From contig CAMCZZ010000002.1 in assembly GCA_945888375.1 (NCBI GenBank), positions 124,001-188,000 of the forward strand: DNA of 64,000 bases, given 5' to 3'. A program made the translations under genes and the position numbers. The notes below the pieces were generated by a model. It was not told the origin of the DNA. It saw only the letters and a list, made by a program, of their open reading frames with translations, and searched no databases. Source of the DNA: Akkermansia muciniphila (GTDB lineage: Bacteria; Verrucomicrobiota; Verrucomicrobiia; Opitutales; Opitutaceae). This document shows, one piece after another, positions 47,127-63,774 of the stretch (position 1 is the first letter of the stretch; every line of letters starts with the position of its first letter).

Positions 47127-47983
47127 GCCGGTTCCGCCAACCGGGCGAAGGGGTTGTGCCCGCGCTCGTGACCGAGGGTGGTGAGCGGCCCGTGGCCGGG
47201 CGCCACCACCGTGTCGGGCGGCAGGTCGCGCCAGATCCGCGCCACCTGCTCGCGCAAGCGCCGGCCGCAAAAGTAGGCTCCGCCGATCGAGCCGGCGAAG
47301 AGCAGGTCCCCGCCGATGAGCAGGGGTGCCGCCTGGGCCGCGCCCGGGGCGCGCACGAGGTAGGCATTGTGCGCCTCGGCGTGGCCGGGCGTCGCGAGCG
47401 TCTCGATGTGGTAGCCCGCGCTCTCCATCCGCGCGCCGTCGCCGATGCCGGTCGCGCCGGCCACCTGTGCACCGACGGGGGCGAAGACCGGGGTGGGGCC
47501 GGAGAACCGCCGCACCTCGGCCAGGCCGCCGGTGTGCTCGGTCTCGTCGTGCGTCAGAAAAACCGCCGCCGCTCCGGGCACGCCCGCCGGCCACATGCGG
47601 CGCAGCCGGGCCGGATCGGGGCCGGTGTCGAAGAGCACGCCCGGCCCGCCCCGGCAGTCGCTCACGAGGTAGGCGTTGGCGGTGCCGAGTCCGTGGGGCG
47701 AGCGCAGGGCGTGCAGGCAGAAGGGCAGCCCGTGGATGGGGGGCAGCGGGTAGCGCCCGTCTGCCAGCTCGCGCAGGCCCACTGAGTTTAAATCCAGCGC
47801 GGCGGCCAGACGATCGATCTCGGCCGGGGCGAAGTCATAGCGGTAGTCGATCGCGTCGCGTATTTTTTCCGCCGGCACCCCGGCGCGAATGCCGAGGGCC
47901 TCCGGGCTCAGGCCGGCGTGACCGAGGGCCTTTTCCAGAACATCCCCCAGCTCGTCCTCCAGTGGTGCCTGTTCGATGACCAT
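47123..47983 (-). CDS. HTH-like domain fused to MBL-fold hydrolase
   Basis: 286 residues from the ATG at 47983. The first about 70 residues ([20 protein letters not shown], then [18 protein letters not shown]) look like a Cro/XRE-type HTH. The remainder is a metallo-beta-lactamase fold with [13 protein letters not shown] (HxxxxH instead of HxHxDH), [32 protein letters not shown] and VAPGHGPL. The first metal motif is altered: H-D-E-T-E-H lacks the second His. It is probably a glyoxalase-II-like hydrolase; the function is unknown. Confidence 0.78.
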
Positions 47984-48063
47984 GCCTGCAAACAATGCAC
48001 CGGAGGCCCCGGGCTCAAACTTTGGTTTCGATTTCGTCCAGCCGGACCGGCACCGTGCCTTCC

Positions 48064-48642
48064 ATGGACGTTTCCCAACAAGAAATTCTCGATATCTTCA
48101 CCCGCACCCGCGCTCTGCTGCGCGGCCACTTCGTGCTCCGCTCCGGGCTGCACAGCGGGCATTATTTCCAATGCGCGCAGGTCTGCCAGGACATGGGCGC
48201 GGTCACCCGGCTGGCCGAGCTTTTGCTGATCAAGCTGCGGGGCGCGGGCGATCTCGGTTTCACCACCGTGCTCGCCCCGGCCATGGGTGGTCTGGTCATC
48301 GGCCAGGAGGTCGCCCGCCAGGCGGGCGCGCGCTACATTTTTGCCGAAAAGGAGAACGACCGCCTCGTGTTGCGGCGCGGGTTCAAATTCGCCCCCGGCG
48401 AGCGCGTGCTGGTGGTGGAGGACGTGGTCACGCGTGGTGGTCGGGTGCTCGAGGCCCTGGAGATCGTGCGCGCCGGCGGCGGCCATGCCGTGGCGGTGGC
48501 GATGCTCGTGGACCGCAGTGCGGGCGCGACGCGCTTTGCTTTACCCGCGCTCTCCCTGCTCGAGCTGAGTTTCCCCACCTTTCCCGCTGACCAACTCCCG
48601 CCCGAGCTGGCCGCCTTGCCGGTCGAGAAACCTGGAAGCTGA
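48064..48642 (+). CDS. pyrE: Orotate phosphoribosyltransferase
   Basis: 192 residues from ATG 48064 (MDVSQQEILDIFTRT). PRPP-binding motif VLVVEDVVTRGGRVLEAL (about 118-135), with SGLHSGHYFQCAQV and VLAPAMGGLVIGQEVARQ. It makes OMP from orotate and PRPP in pyrimidine synthesis. The frame stays open upstream but is non-homologous there. Confidence 0.93.
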   Translation: MDVSQQEILDIFTRTRALLRGHFVLRSGLHSGHYFQCAQVCQDMGAVTRLAELLLIKLRGAGDLGFTTVLAPAMGGLVIGQEVARQAGARYIFAEKENDRLVLRRGFKFAPGERVLVVEDVVTRGGRVLEALEIVRAGGGHAVAVAMLVDRSAGATRFALPALSLLELSFPTFPADQLPPELAALPVEKPGS

Positions 48643-48677
48643 GCCGGGATTTTCTCTGCGACTAATTACGCAACGGG

Positions 48678-50204
48678 ATGGTTTTTGCTCGGCGTGCGGC
48701 TTTGCTCACGACTTTTTCACTGATCGTGGCTTCACTCAAAATCCTCTTCGTTTCGCCCGAGGTTGAACCGTTCGTCAAAGTGGGGGGGCTGGCGGATATG
48801 GTCGGTTCCCTGCCCAAGGCCCTCGCCGCGCTCGGCCATGACGTGCGGGTGGTTTTCCCGGCCTACGGTGGCTTGCGGCTAGATTCCAGCTGGCGCGCCC
48901 GGCCCGATCCACTCGGCGTGGACGTCGGGGCCTCCGCCCATTGGGCGCGCACTTGGGAGAGCGTATTGCCCGACTCGCGAGTGCCCGTTTACGCGCTGGA
49001 GCACGAAGGGCTGTTCGGCCGCCCCGAAGTCTATTCCGGCCCCTGGGGCAACCACGCTGACAACGACCTGCGTTTCGCCTTTCTCTGCCGCGGGGCCTTG
49101 AACCTCTGTCTCCAACTCGGCTGGATCCCCGATGTAGCCCACGCCCACGACTGGACCACGGGCCTGCTGCCGGTGCTGCTCAACACCACCTTGCGTCACA
49201 CCCCGCTCGGTGGCGTGGCTTCAGTTTTCACCATCCATAACATGGAGCACCAGGGCTACGCCGACCGCCGTGTGCTCGCTTTCGCGCACATCCCGCCGGG
49301 AGAGTTCCGGCCCGACAGCACCGAGAGCGGCGGGTCGGTCAACCAGCTCAAGGCCGGGCTCTACCATGCGACCAAGCTCACTACGGTCAGTCCCACCTAC
49401 GCCGAGGAGATCAAGACCCCTGCCGGAGGCCACGGGCTCGATGCCGTGCTCCGTTTCCGCTCCGCTGACCTCGTGGGCATCCTCAACGGCATCGACGCCG
49501 CCGTCTGGAATCCGGCCATGGACCGCTTCCTCCCGCGCCCCTACGACCAGCGCTCGCTGGCTTCGGGCAAACGGGCGGCCAAGCTCGCCCTGCAGGAGCG
49601 CCTCGGGCTCGACGCCGATCCGCACATCGCGGTTTTCGGCGTGGTTTCCCGTTTCGCCGCGCAAAAGGGCCTCGACCTCATCGCCGAGGCGCTGCCGCAC
49701 ATCCTCGACCGCATGCACGTGCAGTTCGCCCTGCTCGGCTCGGGTGATCCCGGTCTGGAGCAGTCCTTCCGCTGGGCGGCGGAAAACTACCCGGGCCGCG
49801 TCGGCGTGCACCTCGGCTACGACAACGCCCTGGCCCACCTCATCCAGGGTGGATCCGACTTTTTCCTCATGCCCAGCCGCTCCGAGCCCTGCGGCCTCAC
49901 CCAGCTGTATGCGATGCGCTACGGCACTTCCCCGCTGGTGCGCGCCACCGGAGGACTGATCGACACCGTGGCGCAATACGTGGAAGGCAAAGCCGAGGGC
50001 ACCGGCTTTCGATTCCACGACGCCACCGCCCCCGCCCTCTACAACACCGTCGGCTGGGCCTGCGCCACCTACTACGACCGGCCTGACGAACTCCACGCCA
50101 TGCGCCTGCGCGGCATGGACCGCGATTTCTCCTGGGGCCCGAACGCGCGTCGCTTCGAGGAACTCTACGGCTGGGCAATTGCCGCCCGCCGCGCGGCGGG
50201 TTGA
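48678..50204 (+). CDS. glgA: Glycogen synthase (ADP-glucose)
   Basis: 508 residues from ATG 48678. The homologous part starts at LKILFVSPEVEPFVKVGGLADM, so the GTG at 48726 is the likelier start (492 residues). The ADP-glucose site is KVGGLAD, and other GT5 marks are HAHDWTTGLLPVLL, TIHNMEHQGYADRR, VSRFAAQKGLDL and PSRSEPCGLTQLYAMRYG. It extends alpha-1,4-glucan for glycogen. Confidence 0.93.
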   Translation: MVFARRAALLTTFSLIVASLKILFVSPEVEPFVKVGGLADMVGSLPKALAALGHDVRVVFPAYGGLRLDSSWRARPDPLGVDVGASAHWARTWESVLPDSRVPVYALEHEGLFGRPEVYSGPWGNHADNDLRFAFLCRGALNLCLQLGWIPDVAHAHDWTTGLLPVLLNTTLRHTPLGGVASVFTIHNMEHQGYADRRVLAFAHIPPGEFRPDSTESGGSVNQLKAGLYHATKLTTVSPTYAEEIKTPAGGHGLDAVLRFRSADLVGILNGIDAAVWNPAMDRFLPRPYDQRSLASGKRAAKLALQERLGLDADPHIAVFGVVSRFAAQKGLDLIAEALPHILDRMHVQFALLGSGDPGLEQSFRWAAENYPGRVGVHLGYDNALAHLIQGGSDFFLMPSRSEPCGLTQLYAMRYGTSPLVRATGGLIDTVAQYVEGKAEGTGFRFHDATAPALYNTVGWACATYYDRPDELHAMRLRGMDRDFSWGPNARRFEELYGWAIAARRAAG

Positions 50205-50235
50205 GGCAAGGATGCGGCAGGGCCCGCGGCCATGC

Positions 50236-50573
50236 TAGGTAGCGTCCGAAGAGTTCAGCAAAAAGGCGGGTCATGGTAGGTGGTTGGGAGACGAAACCTA
50301 AACCACCGAAACGAGGAACGAACCATGACCCGCCCGAAGCGAAACGATGAGACGATCAACCTAACGAAACAAGAACTGCTGCGAGTCCTCAGTGAGGACG
50401 ACGCGCTCAAGAAGCTGATGCAAAAGCTGCTCCAAGAAGTGCTCGAAGCGCAGATGGACGAGGCGCTGCTCGCCGGCAAGGGCGAGCGCACCACCGGCCG
50501 GCTGGGCTATCGCAGCGGTCACTACACACGGTCGCTCATCACCCGCGTGGGCAAGCTGGAGCTACGCGTGCCG
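50236..50573 (+). mobile_element. 5' fragment of an IS256-type insertion sequence
   Basis: The left end around TAGCGTCCGAAGAGTTCAGC precedes a transposase start; only about 340 bp of the element remain. The right end is missing. The break falls about 15 bases from the stop of the PATR/PEP-CTERM gene on the other strand. The exact left boundary is uncertain. Confidence 0.65.
50325..50573 (+). pseudogene. IS256-family transposase, N-terminal fragment
   Basis: 83 family-like residues (MTRPKRNDETINLTKQELLR to VGKLELRVP) match the start of IS256/Mutator-type transposases: the helical N-terminus and GYRSGHYTRSLITRVGKL. The frame then runs on into the antisense of the neighbouring gene. The DDE catalytic domain is absent, so it is inactive. 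Confidence 0.8.
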
Positions 50574-50587
50574 CCGGCTACCGGGGC

Positions 50588-52393
50588 TTACTTGGCGGCC
50601 TGGCGCTCGGAGCGACGGCGGCGCGAGGCGGCGAAGGCCAGGGCGGCGATGCCACCGAAGGCTGCGAACGAGGAGGGCTCGGGGATCGAGCTCGCGGTGA
50701 CGCCCAGCCAGCCCGTTCCGGTGAAGGAGGACAACTCGTAGGTCGCCCCGCTGCCGATGCCACCGTAGGTGCCGACGGCTTGGGAGGCGCCATTGATGAA
50801 GAGATAGGCGATGCTGTTCGTTCCCGAGAAGCCCAGATCCAACACGCTCCCGTCGAAGAGATTCACGTCCGCGCTAGAGTCGAGGAACGCACTGCTCAGG
50901 CTGAGGGTGCCGCCGTTGACGGTGATGTTACCGGTGAAGGTGTTGGCCCCAGACAGGGTCAGCACGCCCGTGCCGTTCTTGGTCAATCCGCCGCCGCCAG
51001 CACCCGCGATCAGGGCCTGGGCGATGGTCACATCGAAACCGTTGGTATCGATGATCGCGCCGCCGGACTTGACCACCGCGGACTGGCCGGCCCCACCGAG
51101 ATCGAAGAAAGCGGTGGTCGAACCAGCGGCCTTAAGCGTGCCGCCGTTGAAGTTAAACGTCGCGGTGCCGCCGTTATTAGTGGTCAGGATCTGACCGACA
51201 GTTAGCGTGCCGCCATTCAAGTTAAACTGATTGTTCGCGCCCGTGACGTTATTGTTCAGGTCGATCACACTGCCGGCCCCGCCGGTGATGGTGCCGGAGT
51301 CGAGGTTGACCGTGCCCGCCGCGGTGGAGTTTTGGGTGCTAAAACGGATGTCGGTGCCGGCGTTCAGATTGAGCGCTCCGCCGGTCACGTTGAGCGTGCC
51401 GGGGGCGGTGTCATACATGTTGACGACCAGCCAGCGCTCGACGGTGGAGCCCACGTTGACCGTGCCGCCAGCCTGGACGTTGACCTCGCCAAACGAGCCA
51501 CCTGAGCCGCTGCCGCCGCGCGAGACCACGAGGTCGGCCTCGGAGTTGAGCACGCCGGTGCCGCTGACGTTCAGCCGGGCGCGCGAGACGTCGGTGCCGT
51601 TGCCGGAATTAGCGAGGTTCACGAACGCAGCGTTGAGGGTGCCGCCGGTCACATTGGCGGTCGCCAGAGTGGAGAACCAGCGACCGAGTTCGAGACCTTT
51701 GGCGTTGATGGTGCCGCCCGATTGGTTGAGCGTGCCGGTGCTGCCCCAGGCGCCGACGTAGATCGCGAGATTGGGTGAGTTAACCGTGCCGTTGACCACG
51801 TTGAGCGTGCCGTTGGCCGGGCCGGAGGGATGGGAGCCCCAGCCCACGTTGATCGAAGACTGATACTGGCCCCAGCCGCTGAAATCTTGGTTCGAATTGG
51901 CCTGCAGGGTGCCCGAGGTGTTGACCGTCACGGTGCCCGTGCCGTTCTCGCCGTAAACAAACCCGCCCACCCAGAGCTTGCCGACCGTCAGATTACCGTC
52001 GCCGGTCAGGTTGTAGGTGCCGGTGCCGGTCTTGGTGCCGACAAACATCCAGTTGCCGTTGGTGCCGGAGGCGGCGAGCGCGAGGCTGCCGGAGCTCTGA
52101 TCGACACGACCGGAATTTCCGGCGCCGTCGCCGATAGAGAAGTCAACCGGACTGATGGTCGGGGAGCCGCTCAAGACCGCATAATTTCCGGTGGCGGTGT
52201 TAACGGTCAGTTTACCGGTGGGGCTGGAGGGGGAGGAGCTCCAGTTTCCTACGGCGTTCCAGTCCTGGCTGACCGCGCCCGTCCAGGTCGCATCAGCGTG
52301 GGCGGAGCAGGCGGCGGCGAGGGCGGTGGTTCCGAGCGCGAGGCGTCGGGAAAGCGCGTGACGATGTTTCGGGCGCGAGTTGGATGTATGCAT
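50588..52393 (-). CDS. PATR-repeat PEP-CTERM surface protein
   Basis: 601 residues: signal region (LALGTTALAAACSAHADATW, about 15-34), then many short beta repeats (GTLNVVNGTVNSPNLAIYVG, GTLNQSGGTINAKGLELGRW, TKNGTGVLTLSGANTFTGNI). The C-terminus SSIPEPSSFAAFGGIAALAF with ASRRRRSE is an intact PEP-CTERM sorting tail. It is an exported, probably cell-surface protein. Its 3' flank is replaced by the IS256 fragment, but the coding end is intact. Confidence 0.88.
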   Translation of the reverse strand: MHTSNSRPKHRHALSRRLALGTTALAAACSAHADATWTGAVSQDWNAVGNWSSSPSSPTGKLTVNTATGNYAVLSGSPTISPVDFSIGDGAGNSGRVDQSSGSLALAASGTNGNWMFVGTKTGTGTYNLTGDGNLTVGKLWVGGFVYGENGTGTVTVNTSGTLQANSNQDFSGWGQYQSSINVGWGSHPSGPANGTLNVVNGTVNSPNLAIYVGAWGSTGTLNQSGGTINAKGLELGRWFSTLATANVTGGTLNAAFVNLANSGNGTDVSRARLNVSGTGVLNSEADLVVSRGGSGSGGSFGEVNVQAGGTVNVGSTVERWLVVNMYDTAPGTLNVTGGALNLNAGTDIRFSTQNSTAAGTVNLDSGTITGGAGSVIDLNNNVTGANNQFNLNGGTLTVGQILTTNNGGTATFNFNGGTLKAAGSTTAFFDLGGAGQSAVVKSGGAIIDTNGFDVTIAQALIAGAGGGGLTKNGTGVLTLSGANTFTGNITVNGGTLSLSSAFLDSSADVNLFDGSVLDLGFSGTNSIAYLFINGASQAVGTYGGIGSGATYELSSFTGTGWLGVTASSIPEPSSFAAFGGIAALAFAASRRRRSERQAAK

Positions 52394-52620: not shown

Positions 52621-53009
52621 CAATACCGATGGGGTCGCTCCGAGAAATGCAAAATCCGCCTGCCAACCCGCCCGCGGGCCAGCCCGCCGACCACGCCTAC
52701 GCCTACGATCTCGGAGGCAACCGGCGCGGCGAAGCCCGCGACGCCGCCGCCACCGCCTGGACGACCAACGGCCGCAACCAACTCGTCGCCGACGCCCCGG
52801 CCCTGCGGGTGCGGGCCGACTACAACGCCGCCCCGGCCGGCAACCGCGCCTGGCTGAACGGCCGGGAATTTGACCTCGATTCCGCGCACCGGCTCGACAC
52901 CGTCCATCCCATGGCCAGTGGCGAACAGACCCTTACGCTCCGCGCCGAGGATGCGAACACCGGCGGGGTGCTGCGCAAGAGCTGGCAAGTCACCGTGCCG
53001 GCCTTCGCC
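52621..53009. repeat. 389-bp direct repeat, copy A
   Basis: From CAATACCGATGGGGTCGCTC to GTGCCGGCCTTCGCC. It is near-identical to copy B at 54606-54994, with a constant 1985-base offset and thus no net indel. It encodes the N-terminal part of the RHS-type protein. Confidence 0.9.
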
Positions 53010-54119
53010 CCGAAGACCTTTGACTACGACGCCAACGGCAACCTCACCCGCATCACCCAGGCCGGCGTGGTGCTGCGTTTCCATAAATGGGACGCCCGCG
53101 ACCGCCTCATCGCGTGGGGTTCTAGCACCACCGTCGAGGGCCGTTTCCACTACGACAGCCTCGGCCAGCGTTACCGCGAAACCGACGGCGCTGGGGCCAC
53201 GGTGCGTCAATGGGTCTGGGATGGCGGCGCCCAGCCCTTGCAGGAACGCGACGCGAACGGCGCGGTGACGCGGCGCTTTTTCGGCCAGGGTGAAATGCGC
53301 AAGATCGGCGGCGCGGAAATCGCCCGCTACTACGCGAGAGACCACCTCGGCAGCGTCCGCGAGGTCGTCGATGGCAACAACGCCGTCGTCGCCAGCTACA
53401 CCTTCGACCCCTACGGCAGGAGGGTGAAATTGGCCGGGACGGAGAATTATGAAGTCGGTTTTACCGGTCATTACTATCATGCGGCGACGGGTTTGTATCT
53501 AACCCGTTTCCGCGCCTACGACGCCGACACCGCGCGATGGCTCAGCAGGGATCCGATTGGGGAAAATGGACCAGACGGGCCGAACTTGTATGCATATGTC
53601 CGCAACCGGCCTATCGACTATGTTGATCCAGATGGGCGCTGGGGCATCCCTGGTGCTATCGCCGGAGGAGTTGTTGGAGGGATTTCTGGAGCTATCAGCG
53701 GAGGGATTAGCGGTTATCTATCCGGGGGCTGGGGTAGCGCCTTAGCAGGTGGAATATCTGGCTCCATAGCAGGAGGGCTAACAGGGGCTGCCGTTGGTGC
53801 CGTGAACCCTTTCGCATCTAGCACAGCTGGTGCGGCGGCAGGTGGCGCTGTTGGCGGTTTTTTTGGTGACCTCGCTGGGCAAGCAACTGGGCATATGATG
53901 AGAACCGGAAACCCCAACTTGGATTGTTTTGAGCCGAATTATGCCTCTGCGGGATTATCGGCGGCAACAGGCGCCTTCGGTGCGGGTTTCGGTGCGTCAG
54001 CTGCGCGCGGAATGTCCGGACTTCCACACGCTCTTGCATCTGGTGCGGGAGAAATTGCTGTTTCGCCAGCAGCTGGAGTCTTGCAGGCAGCCGGCCCAAA
54101 CCTGTTCCCGTCGCCATGA
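52629..54119 (+). CDS. RHS-type orphan polymorphic-toxin-like protein
   Basis: 496 residues. YD/RHS repeats are visible (HAYAYDLGGNRR, FDYDANGNLTRI, FHYDSLGQRYRETDG, YARDHLGSVREVVD). The RHS core-associated end is RFRAYDADTARWLSRDPIGE with NLYAYVRNRPIDYVDPDG (about 320-337). A unique C-terminal module (about 339-496) is Gly/Ala-rich with GG-x-x-G zippers. It is far shorter than full RHS proteins and lacks a signal or upstream domain, so it is an orphan tip. The ATG at 52629 has no good ribosome binding site. The stop overlaps the next gene (ATGA). Confidence 0.78.
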   Translation: MGSLREMQNPPANPPAGQPADHAYAYDLGGNRRGEARDAAATAWTTNGRNQLVADAPALRVRADYNAAPAGNRAWLNGREFDLDSAHRLDTVHPMASGEQTLTLRAEDANTGGVLRKSWQVTVPAFAPKTFDYDANGNLTRITQAGVVLRFHKWDARDRLIAWGSSTTVEGRFHYDSLGQRYRETDGAGATVRQWVWDGGAQPLQERDANGAVTRRFFGQGEMRKIGGAEIARYYARDHLGSVREVVDGNNAVVASYTFDPYGRRVKLAGTENYEVGFTGHYYHAATGLYLTRFRAYDADTARWLSRDPIGENGPDGPNLYAYVRNRPIDYVDPDGRWGIPGAIAGGVVGGISGAISGGISGYLSGGWGSALAGGISGSIAGGLTGAAVGAVNPFASSTAGAAAGGAVGGFFGDLAGQATGHMMRTGNPNLDCFEPNYASAGLSAATGAFGAGFGASAARGMSGLPHALASGAGEIAVSPAAGVLQAAGPNLFPSP

Positions 54120-54403
54120 CGATAACTTGGTTGATATTGCTTGGTGTGCTTTTTGTATCATCCTTATTGATACATTACTGCGTAGGCTTAGTGCCTGAAC
54201 GATTCATTGCGCTAGCGTATGGATCGGGGATTTTGATGTTCCTTGGAGCGACTAGTTGGCTGGCTGTTATCTTTATTCGTCCGCAAGGCGGTGGAGCGGA
54301 GTTAGGGTTCGTTTTTTTAGCCATCTTTCTATCGTGGTGCGGGGGCGCGTTGATTTATCGCATGATGAAATTGAGCCAAAAAAATCGGGTAGAGAAACGT
54401 TGA
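54116..54403 (+). CDS. Small membrane protein, candidate immunity protein
   Basis: 95 residues with about three hydrophobic helices (about 4-24, 31-52, 62-84) and a basic C-terminus (KLSQKNRVEKR). Its ATG overlaps the RHS stop by 4 bases. Its GC is visibly lower than that of the RHS core. I do not recognise a family. Position directly after a polymorphic toxin tip and membrane location suggest immunity to a membrane-acting toxin. Confidence 0.6.
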   Translation: MTITWLILLGVLFVSSLLIHYCVGLVPERFIALAYGSGILMFLGATSWLAVIFIRPQGGGAELGFVFLAIFLSWCGGALIYRMMKLSQKNRVEKR

Positions 54404-54439
54404 ATCTTCCCCCTGAAACGCCCCCGCCGCGTTAAGATC

Positions 54440-54490
54440 CTCGCAGACTCGGCGGCACGTCTCGCGCCAGCTCTCCGCCGAGCCTGCGAG
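54440..54490. repeat. Inverted repeat with 16-bp arms
   Basis: CTCGCAGACTCGGCGG (54440-54455) and CCGCCGAGCCTGCGAG (54475-54490) pair with a single mismatch around a 19-base loop. No T run. It may be a REP-type palindrome related to the broken Y1 transposase downstream. Confidence 0.65.
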
Positions 54491-54560
54491 CTGTCACGAG
54501 CCCTGCTTGCTCCCTCGCTGCGCTCGGTCCGCTGGAGTGCAACCCCGCCCGGCCCGGCCC

Positions 54561-54580
54561 ACGGCGCAAGAATGCGCCGT
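54561..54580. repeat. Perfect hairpin before repeat B
   Basis: ACGGCGCA-AGAA-TGCGCCGT, 8-bp stem with a 4-base loop, sits just before the 18-bp tandem and repeat B. It could be an RNA end or the boundary of an inserted segment. Confidence 0.55.
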
Positions 54581-54585
54581 AGAGG

Positions 54586-54621
54586 CCCAATACCGATGGG
54601 GTGCCCAATACCGATGGGGTC
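54586..54621. repeat. 18-bp tandem duplication at the edge of repeat B
   Basis: CCCAATACCGATGGGGTG at 54586 is followed at once by CCCAATACCGATGGGGTC. Only the second unit continues into the 389-bp repeat. Copy A has a single unit. Confidence 0.8.
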
Positions 54622-54994
54622 GCTCCGAGAAATGCAAAATCCGCCTGCCAACCTGCCCCCCGGCCAGCCGGCCGACCACGCCTACGCCTACGATCTCGGC
54701 GGCAACCGGCGCGGCGAAGCCCGCGACGCCGCCGCCACCGCCTGGACGACCAACGGCCGCAACCAACTCGTCGCCGCCGCCCCGGCCCTGCGGGTGCGGG
54801 CCGACTACAACGCCGCCCCCGCCGGCAACCGCACCTGGCTGAACGGCCGGGAATTTGACCTCGATTCCGCGCACCGGCTCGACACCGTCCTTCCCATGGC
54901 CAGTGGCGAACAGACCCTTACCCTCCGCGCCGAGGACGCCGCGACCGGCGGGGTGCTCCGCAATAGCTGGCAGGTGACCGTGCCGGCCTTCGCC
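54606..54994. repeat. 389-bp direct repeat, copy B
   Basis: This is the second copy of the RHS segment. It ends where copy A goes on into RHS repeats, at the shared GTGCCGGCCTTCGCC. Confidence 0.9.
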
Positions 54995-55054
54995 TCATTC
55001 TCGGCGGAGAACAACCGCCCGAATGGGACCAAGCCCAGGCCGACTACCGCGTAA
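54614..55054 (+). pseudogene. Truncated second RHS segment
   Basis: From the ATG matching that of the intact copy, 127 residues equal the first part of the RHS-like protein with few changes (AAAPALRVRADY for ADAPALRVRADY; ATGGVLRNSWQV for NTGGVLRKSWQV). Then it runs into unrelated sequence (FSAENNRPNGTKPRPTTA) and stops. It lacks the core end and toxin tip. It may act as a recombination donor. Confidence 0.75.
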
Positions 55055-55355
55055 CCCTGTTTGGCGTCGGCTCCGCCGCCCGCCTGGGCAAAGGCACCGT
55101 CTCGCCGATGCGCTCCAAAGCGCCGTGGCCCAAAAGGGCCGCCTGCCCCGCCATCTCATCCTGCGCCAGCGCATCCGCCACTTCAGTGACGGCGCCGTCC
55201 TCGGCGGCCAAAACTTCCTCGCCCTGCACCTCGCCTCCTACCGTGCACGCACCGGCCGCCGCCGCCGCTCCCCACCCAAAACCCTCCCGCCACTCGCCGA
55301 CTGGGGCGCCGACCTCGCCACCCTTCGCGGGCTCAGGTGCGGCACCTTCGCCTAG
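55010..55355 (+). pseudogene. C-terminal remnant of a REP-associated Y1-type transposase
   Basis: One frame reads PPEWDQAQADYRVTLFGVGS, and another, after a frameshift, LQSAVAQKGRLPRHLILRQR then IRHFSDGAVLGGQNFLALHL and ends DWGADLATLRGLR. This order (W..A...YR..LF, G.L...L..R.RHFSDGAVLG, DW..L..LR) is that of the C-terminal part of REP-associated (RAYT-type) transposases of this phylum. The catalytic HUH/Tyr N-terminus is missing. The element is inactive. Confidence 0.6.
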
Positions 55356-56299
55356 CCGATCCAGCGCAGACCGAGTTTTAACCACAGCGGCACGACGAAC
55401 AGGCCCGCCGCCGTCGTGCCGAGCACCACCTGCACGGCGGTCAGCGGGCGGCCGCCGTGGTGTTTGGCGATCACGATGGGCAGAATGCCGGCCGGCATCG
55501 CGGCCTGCACGACCAGCACCTGTTTCAACTCGCGCGGGATCGGCAACAGCGCGGCCACCCCCAGCATCGCCAGCGGGATCAAGCCGAGCCGCAAGGCGCA
55601 GGCCAGCGGGGTCACCTTGCGGTCCACCAGCGTCCGGGGTTCGGCGAGAAATTCCACTAGGGTGGCGCCGATGACCAGCAGGCCCACCGGCACCGCGCAT
55701 ACCCCGATCAGGCGGATGGATTCCAGCACTACGGGCGGCAGCCAGGCAGCGGCCCCGCCGAGGTTGAGCGCGATCGCCGCCGCTAGGGCATACACCGGCG
55801 GATTGAGCGCGCGCCGCCAGCCGGTCCGCACCGGCACGCCCGCGAGAATGAGGATGCCCACCGTCCAGATCGCCGCCTCGCAGCCGACGTTGAAGACGAA
55901 CAGCACCCCCAGCGTCTCCCGCCCGAAGAGTGCCTCGACCAGTGGAATCGCCATGTAGCCGTAGTTGAAAATCCCGACGCTAAAGGCAAAGGTGCGCAGG
56001 CCGCCGCCCACTGCTAAACCCGCTTTTTTCGCGACCCAATAGGCGAGGACGATGCCCCCGGCCATGGTGGCGAAGCCCAGCGCCGGCCCGGCCAGGAGGT
56101 TGCCCGGCGCGCGCAGGGCGGCGTTGCCCAGCACGTGGCTGAAAATCAGGCAGGGGTAGAGCAGGTTGACCACCAGCTTCAGCAGGCTCTCGTCCGCCTC
56201 GGGGCGCAGCCAGCCCGCGCGGCGCGCGCCCGCCCCCGCCGCGACCACCGCAAAGACGGGCAACACCAAGCCCAAGAGGGTCCAATAACCGGGCAGCAT
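55352..56299 (-). CDS. AEC-family (auxin efflux carrier-like) permease
   Basis: 315 residues with about ten hydrophobic helices in two five-helix halves. Family marks are VNLLYPCLIFSHVLG, FNYGYMAIPLVEALFG, NPPVYALAAAIALNLGG and VVQAAMPAGILPIVIAKHHGG. It is a secondary transporter, often for dicarboxylates or amino acids. The substrate is unknown. The stop overlaps the convergent transposase remnant by 4 bases. Confidence 0.9.
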   Translation of the reverse strand: MLPGYWTLLGLVLPVFAVVAAGAGARRAGWLRPEADESLLKLVVNLLYPCLIFSHVLGNAALRAPGNLLAGPALGFATMAGGIVLAYWVAKKAGLAVGGGLRTFAFSVGIFNYGYMAIPLVEALFGRETLGVLFVFNVGCEAAIWTVGILILAGVPVRTGWRRALNPPVYALAAAIALNLGGAAAWLPPVVLESIRLIGVCAVPVGLLVIGATLVEFLAEPRTLVDRKVTPLACALRLGLIPLAMLGVAALLPIPRELKQVLVVQAAMPAGILPIVIAKHHGGRPLTAVQVVLGTTAAGLFVVPLWLKLGLRWIG

Positions 56300-56308
56300 G
56301 CGATCGAC

Positions 56309-62249
<5,941 letters not shown>

Positions 62250-62266
62250 CCTGACCTCGCTTCGCC

Positions 62267-63466
62267 ATGCCGCGCCACGTTTTCACCCGCCGCCTCGGCG
62301 CCTGGCGCCTGCCGGAGAATTATTCGCGTTGGTGGGTGCGCTGGCCGGTGGCGACGTTCCTTATTCTCGGGCTGGCCATGACCCTCCCGCGCGCCTGGTG
62401 CGGTCGGGACGCCGCCCGCTGGCTGGCGAACGACGAGGCTTTGGTTCTCGCCCACGCCCGCACCGTGGTTGCCGGTGTGGAAGCCGGCGTGCCAGCGGAG
62501 CCACTCTCCGGGCCAGCCGGCCTTTTCCAAAACGAGTGGCTTTTCGGCACCAGCCAGATGGCGGCGCTGGGTCTTCTCCAAGTCTGTATCCAGCATCCCG
62601 GACGCCGGGACGAGTTTCTGCCGGCGGCTGAGCATGCCATCGACCAAATGCTCTCCGAACGGGCGCGGGCCTTTGATGCGGCGCGCTGGAGGGAGGATCC
62701 CCTCGCCTCTCTCGACGGCCCCCGGGGGCACGCGGCCTACCTCGGCTATCTCAACCTTGCCCTCTCGCTGCACCGCCGCGCCGTCCCGGACTCACGCTTC
62801 GCCGACCTCAACGACCGCATCTCGGCTGCGCTCGTCCGCCGGCTGGAGGCAAGCCGCCACGGCATTCTGGAGACGTATCCGCTGGAGGCCTATCCGGTGG
62901 ACAACGCGGCCGTGCTCGGCTCCCTCCTGTTGCACGCTCGGATCACCGGGGTGGATTACTCGGCGGTGGCGCCGGCGGCCCTCGCAAGATTTAGCATAGC
63001 CTGGGTTGATCCGCGTTCCGGCCTGCTTTTTCAGGCCATCAATTCGCGCGACGGCAAGCCGGCTGGCGCGGCCCGGGCCAGCGGAACGGCCCTCGCGGCT
63101 TTTTTGCTCTCTTACGGCGAACGCACGGTGTCGGGCGCCTTGTTCGCGGCGGTGCGCGATCGCTGCGCCGACTCCATCTGGGGCTTCGGCTATCTCAACG
63201 AATACCATATCGGCTCGGCCGCGGCCGGCGTCGGCGACATCGCCGCCGGCCCCTTGATTTTCGGGGTTAGTCCGACCGCCACGGGCTTCGCTCTTGGCGG
63301 GGCCCGGCTTTTCGACGATCGGCGCCGCTTCGTCTCGCTCTACCGCACCGCTCATTTGGCGGGCACGCCCAGCAAGCGGGGAAACCGGCGCGTTTTCGTG
63401 ACGGGCGGGCCGCTGGGCAACGCGATCATGCTGGCGATGTGCACCGCCCGGCTGGAGGCCCCATGA
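62267..63466 (+). CDS. Membrane-anchored helical-barrel protein, unknown
   Basis: 399 residues. One N-terminal hydrophobic helix (about 24-43, WPVATFLILGLAMTLP), then repeated helix pairs (RDAARWLANDEALVLAHART, LGSLLLHARITGV, YGERTVSGALFAAVRDR). They suggest an alpha/alpha barrel of the type seen in linalool dehydratase-like and glycan-acting proteins. This is a weak assignment. The stop overlaps the next start (ATGA). Confidence 0.6.
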   Translation: MPRHVFTRRLGAWRLPENYSRWWVRWPVATFLILGLAMTLPRAWCGRDAARWLANDEALVLAHARTVVAGVEAGVPAEPLSGPAGLFQNEWLFGTSQMAALGLLQVCIQHPGRRDEFLPAAEHAIDQMLSERARAFDAARWREDPLASLDGPRGHAAYLGYLNLALSLHRRAVPDSRFADLNDRISAALVRRLEASRHGILETYPLEAYPVDNAAVLGSLLLHARITGVDYSAVAPAALARFSIAWVDPRSGLLFQAINSRDGKPAGAARASGTALAAFLLSYGERTVSGALFAAVRDRCADSIWGFGYLNEYHIGSAAAGVGDIAAGPLIFGVSPTATGFALGGARLFDDRRRFVSLYRTAHLAGTPSKRGNRRVFVTGGPLGNAIMLAMCTARLEAP

Positions 63467-63774
63467 AGACTCCCGCGCGCAAACCCTGGTGGCAAAAGGC
63501 CTACGAGCGGCGCCTGGCGCAGCCGGCGCCGACGCTTGGGCGCATCGCCCTGGAGCTGGCGGTCGTGTATGCGCTGCACTTTGCGGCCAGCTTCGCGCTC
63601 GCGCGCCTGTCGTTGCTCGAAGCAGTCCTCACCCCGGGACCGGGCGGCCGGCTGGCGTTGGTCGCCGCGCTGGGGTTTTTCGCGCTGCGCTTGTTTGTCC
63701 TGCTTTTGGCACCCGGCTGGTTCCTTGCCCGACTCTGGCTCCTCCTTACGCGGGAACGTCCGGAGTCGCGGTGA
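63463..63774 (+). CDS. Small membrane protein, unknown
   Basis: 103 residues from the ATG at 63463 (MKTPARKPWWQKAYERRL). Two or three hydrophobic helices (about 27-48, 62-88). It is coupled to the helical-barrel gene by an ATGA overlap, so they probably act together. No family recognised. It overlaps the convergent gene's 3' end by 29 bases. Confidence 0.6.
   Translation: MKTPARKPWWQKAYERRLAQPAPTLGRIALELAVVYALHFAASFALARLSLLEAVLTPGPGGRLALVAALGFFALRLFVLLLAPGWFLARLWLLLTRERPESR

Follow-up and report, generated by a model that had tools for sequence, protein, structure and literature searches.

The window, a stretch of 64,000 nucleotides, probably contains what is left of a decayed polymorphic RHS toxin locus of the tip-swapping type, from which the delivery half was lost and in which pieces of the RHS core would serve as recombination arms. 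The genome to which it belongs (G000) comprises 3.22 Mb in 39 contigs and is 99.5% complete. The features of the locus are listed in Table 1.

Table 1. Features annotated in the RHS locus of the window and its surroundings.
Feature	Position	Strand	Basis
IS256/Mutator-type element, truncated 5' end (terminal repeat and N-terminal ~118 codons)	50238..50640	+	Transposase_mut 4.5e-16, IS256
PEP-CTERM / autotransporter-repeat protein gene, outside the RHS locus	50588..52393	-	PATR and PEP-CTERM matches
REP-like leader, copy A; supplies in-frame ATG (52647)	52621..52657	+	same sequence at B and at B of G011
N-terminally truncated RHS open frame, 496 aa (core end and tip)	52629..54119	+	RHS_repeat, Rhs_assc_core, PDB RHS structures
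Repeated RHS segment, copy A	52663..53009	+	repeat scan, alignment
Polymorphic tip X, glycine-zipper-like	53637..54119	+	G011 homology stops at 53638, just past DPDG
Putative immunity gene X, 95 aa, three predicted membrane helices	54116..54403	+	ORF, helix prediction, ATGA overlap
Dispersed element E, 5' part, cut by REP	54441..54583	+	nhmmer family, genus-wide copies
REP-like leader, copy B	54606..54642	+	alignment, genus matches
Repeated RHS segment, copy B	54648..54994	+	repeat scan, alignment
Second RAYT-type (Y1) transposase, C-terminal remnant, into permease stop	54995..55355	+	sequences of full-length homologues, not a profile match

A single long direct-repeat family, represented by copy A (52621–52920) and copy B (54606–54905), was recovered by the repeat scan of 45–64 kb. 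The offset between the copies is 1985; in the whole-genome sequence search, which recovered no third full copy, they aligned over 389–390 nt at 95% identity. The direct repeat of 389 nt at 52621 and 54606, reported with this offset in the earlier note, was thereby confirmed, as were the common end points of the copies, both of which start with CAATACCGATGGGGTCGC and end with GCCGGCCTTCGCC. According to the alignment, each copy consists of a REP-like leader of ~40 nt (CAATACCGATGGGGTCGCTCCGAGAAATGCAAAATCC) and 347 nt of RHS coding sequence; the RHS content proposed earlier for the repeat therefore holds for these 347 nt and not for the first ~40 nt. The same two segments were recovered in the independently assembled genome of a sister species (G011). 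Between the copies lie the RHS core end, the tip, the 95-aa membrane protein and part of the dispersed element E; the layout of core end, unique tip and small membrane protein described previously is correct.

The 496-aa frame contains RHS_repeat (Pfam, 3.2e-07) and Rhs_assc_core (TIGR03696, 9.4e-21) and is matched by RHS structures of the PDB at residues ~119–343. RHS/YD repeats and the RHS-associated core domain ahead of a variable C-terminus are typical for RHS polymorphic toxins; the N-terminal delivery region and the full barrel are absent from the frame starting at 52629, and the delivery part was found only in G011. Like orphan rhs-CT/rhsI modules, the locus combines a core fragment similar to full-length rhs, a distinct tip and a partner gene downstream. 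The orphan RHS tip and partner recognized in the earlier note are accordingly an N-terminally truncated tip with a probable immunity gene.

Tip X consists of 160 aa, 56% of which are G, A or S, and GC3 drops sharply from 0.80 in the core to 0.44 in the tip. The tip and immunity genes overlap by 4 nt (ATGA). Profile searches gave no family match for tip X or for its 95-aa partner, and no close relative of tip X was found in 252 genomes of the family, where weak matches were confined to the glycine-rich stretch. Substitutions in the core are chiefly synonymous (ratio 0.15). By analogy with Tse5, tip X may act at a membrane as a pore former, and the small membrane protein X would confer immunity. 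Since no delivery gene is left, the locus today may mainly give immunity or drift.

Synteny of the window with G011 was observed on both sides of the locus (47557–50237 and 54605–63773). Between glgA and the permease gene, G011 encodes a 1975-aa RHS frame with an apparent signal peptide, a C39-like peptidase region and RHS repeats; it carries a different tip and is followed by a different 83-aa membrane protein, REP with copy B, the RAYT remnant and the permease gene. The core of the window matches this full-length gene at 93% over 976 nt, after which tip and partner diverge. Homology between the species breaks immediately past the core codons for DPDG and returns at the REP of copy B; therefore, the tip and its partner are the differing part on that side. 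The two tips resemble each other only weakly, in glycine-rich sequence, and the putative 95-aa immunity protein X and the partner in G011 (immunity Y) could not be aligned. The RHS island would most simply be a young insertion gained by the ancestor that the window species shares with G011, because glgA and the permease gene are adjacent, without RHS, in three relatives (G006, G014 and G013). Two contigs of other genomes, G007:C91 and G009:C128, end within ~550 bp of the 3' end of the permease gene, that is, at the site of the RHS island, which is possibly a hotspot of repeats or insertions.

In the window, the 5' three quarters of the RHS gene are replaced by other sequences adjoining an IS256 remnant. 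Homology to G011 stops at 50237, and the IS256-type remnant starts exactly there; the PEP-CTERM block (to 52619) occupies the place of the RHS 5' part in the sister and is colinear with the congeneric contig G002:C161 at 73–81%, up to the REP boundary of copy A. Because the IS256 end and the congener-colinear PEP-CTERM block stand in place of the sister homology, the RHS 5' part was lost in this lineage, most simply by an IS-linked rearrangement. Related IS256-type ends recur in G000 and in congeners. Such end sequences were also observed ≤150 nt from the start of the G000 contigs C12, C19, C20, C25, C30 and C34, so that many assembly breaks of this genome may be copies of IS elements.

Comparison of the copies pointed to past exchange between them. 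Four variable sites group A with B within a genome and none group A with A and B with B across species, which is a small number of sites; copies A and B of G011 differ at 5 sites, and 14–18 sites differ between the species. The REP-like leader heads copy A in the window, and in G011 it heads only copy B. Because of the within-genome grouping of A with B and the placement of the leader, exchange between the copies probably took place after the split of the species; independent duplication with identical borders is a less likely alternative. The proposal of the earlier note that recombination between the copies would delete or exchange the cassette is thus supported by sequence signs of past exchange and by the sister, in which the tip is another one and the 1985-bp unit is missing.

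The history of the locus may be reconstructed as follows. As the comparison shows, an RHS island entered between glgA and the permease gene in an ancestor shared by the species and its sister. The ancestral island, kept in the sister, comprised a full-length RHS gene with its tip, a gene for a small membrane protein and one or more displaced pieces of the core with REP at their head. In the lineage of the window, the delivery part (~1,500 residues, including the signal peptide and the C39-like peptidase) is missing beside the IS256 remnant, leaving REP, core, tip, immunity gene and E, followed by REP and a core piece. The two core pieces would act as homologous arms, recombination between which could add, remove or swap the 1985-bp tip/immunity unit.

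Element E is GC-rich, ~350–450 bp long and strongly linked to RHS tip/immunity genes, on their 3' side, and it is present elsewhere too. At 10 of the 26 RHS cores of the genus it stands behind the tip, in the same orientation, and 12 of its 32 matches are located there; by estimate, chance would place ~0.03 matches in the 52 kb that lie downstream of RHS cores, out of about 55 Mb. The genus-wide search gave no match to E in G011, which fits an import of E jointly with tip X and immunity X. No RNA families were detected by the Rfam scan of 50.2–56.0 kb; E is therefore not a known RNA. An integron attC site was considered for E and rejected, as no core-site pairs were seen by eye.

A contig of a third species (G014:C148, locus L048; 3061 bp) contains an RHS segment, core, tip, partner, E, REP and again the RHS segment, with a different RHS core, and its ends are identical over 79 nt. 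It is a free 2982-bp circle or else an array of units placed head to tail. Among the other informative G014 contigs examined none was self-closing, and one further contig consisted entirely of N. It is conceivable, although rather unlikely, that RHS tips of the genus travel as units of REP, core, tip, immunity gene and E, which leave as small circles and insert again into RHS genes; the contig G014:C148 would then be one such unit and the 1985-bp unit of the window an integrated one. In another contig of this genome (G014:C369, locus L056, 7898–12143), primase-like and tyrosine-recombinase-like genes are located between two RHS units of tip, partner and E.

The sequence of the leader is present 68–69 nt upstream of the starts of intact RAYT genes in G014:C291 and G011:C17, with an inverted copy at the other end; it thus flanks RAYT genes in inverted orientation, as REPs do. 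Directly upstream of the REP of copy B, the start of the leader (CCAATACCGATGGGGT) is partially duplicated at 54586–54622. Two direct REP copies 1278 bp apart were also found in G000 (C1:361220 and 362498), without an evident RAYT gene between them. The RAYT remnant after copy B is 98.3% identical in G011. That the leader and this remnant form the two ends of a single RAYT element was considered and rejected, since they belong to two different RAYT types.

It is unlikely that a Y1 transposase acting on REPs, and not plain homologous recombination, moves the units of REP, core, tip, immunity gene and E. Such movement is suggested by the three unrelated left contexts (window A, window B and B of G011) that stop at the same base before REP, by the location of 7 of the 17 REP matches of the genus at or ≤2 kb after RHS genes, the copies of the window and G011 being counted as three, and by the unit of G014:C148 that closes on itself. 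However, mobilisation by RAYTs is thought to concern REPs, and REPtrons seem not to move as a unit (PMC6006769); the 347 bp common to the copies suffice for ordinary recombination, and the remnant after copy B is not of the type paired with this REP. A literature search for RAYTs linked with toxins found nothing relevant.

The REP also supplies start codons, and the truncated RHS with its partner could be an intracellular toxin–antitoxin pair started from such an ATG. The intact 496-aa frame and the in-frame ATGs within REP are consistent with this, and PMC7043789 reports Salmonella RHS elements acting as toxin–antitoxin modules. However, the B copies carry the same ATG without any tip, so that it may be there by chance, and a cytoplasmic role of this kind is improbable.

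The earlier note regarded the locus as a tip reservoir feeding a full-length RHS gene elsewhere. In the genome search, neither a full-length RHS gene nor any other RHS core was found in G000, the core of the window being the sole one; the full-length gene with the same segment and another tip, which the earlier note proposed to look for in the genome, was found in the sister species. Since a full-length RHS gene is absent from the genome, the orphan has nothing to feed, and most likely the full-length gene once stood at this same locus and has since been lost. A living reservoir, in which an orphan is kept for loading onto the full-length RHS of the same cell, as in Salmonella, is accordingly very improbable, although the layout resembles the Salmonella rhs-main/orphan pair sharing a 522-bp, 95% identical segment (PMC3967940) and copies A and B appear to recombine. 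An assembly artefact, which the earlier note named as a reason to abandon its reading, or a plain duplication irrelevant to toxin exchange can practically be dismissed despite the draft state of the source genomes and the origin of the sister genome as a metagenome bin, because copies A and B differ at 19 of the 347 RHS sites in the alignment, which excludes a duplicated read or contig, and both segments, with common breakpoints, are present in the sister.

The preferred reading, a decayed tip-swapping locus, was compared with known systems. For enterobacteria, Jackson et al. 2009 (PMC2935791) proposed tip exchange by recombination via small circles of core and tip, left circle formation open and assumed free tips to exist as a reservoir; Koskiniemi et al. 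2014 (PMC3967940) supported homologous recombination of tips with evolved Salmonella. Similar to the displaced or orphan rhs tips of Enterobacteriaceae (PMC2935791, PMC3967940), the locus of the window contains a core fragment without the 5' part, a different tip and a small partner gene, with core homology between the copies and a tip switch at a DPxG-type border. It differs from them in its Verrucomicrobiota host, in the absence of the full-length gene from the genome, in copies headed by REP and followed by element E, and in that the full-length relative (G011) has a C39-like peptidase region and apparently a signal peptide. Immunity genes and toxin ends without start signals, some interrupted by pieces of transposable elements, are likewise present in orphan cdiA-CT/cdiI modules (Poole et al. 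2011, PMC3150448), but these belong to another delivery family and their border motif is VENN.

An RHS tip without a recognised enzyme motif and a small membrane immunity protein are also characteristic of Tse5/Tsi5 of Pseudomonas aeruginosa, and pore formation was demonstrated for Tse5 (PMC9637101, PMC10684867). Tse5 is delivered by a T6SS. For tip X, a Gly/Ala-rich composition and a membrane-protein partner were observed; no similarity between the two tips was found, the PDB matches spanning only the RHS core. As in REP/RAYT systems, or REPtrons (PMC6006769), the leader is a repeat flanking RAYT genes of the genus in inverted orientation, but here REP heads pieces of RHS genes and the locus lacks an intact RAYT. 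The outcome for this genome is modest, a toxin locus without its delivery half; together, the locus, the differently tipped sister locus and the self-closing unit of the third species offer a concrete place to seek tip circles and the borders of these circles (REP and E). The window thus holds a decayed orphan RHS-tip locus of the type described by Jackson et al. (2009), to which the REP/E borders are the new detail.
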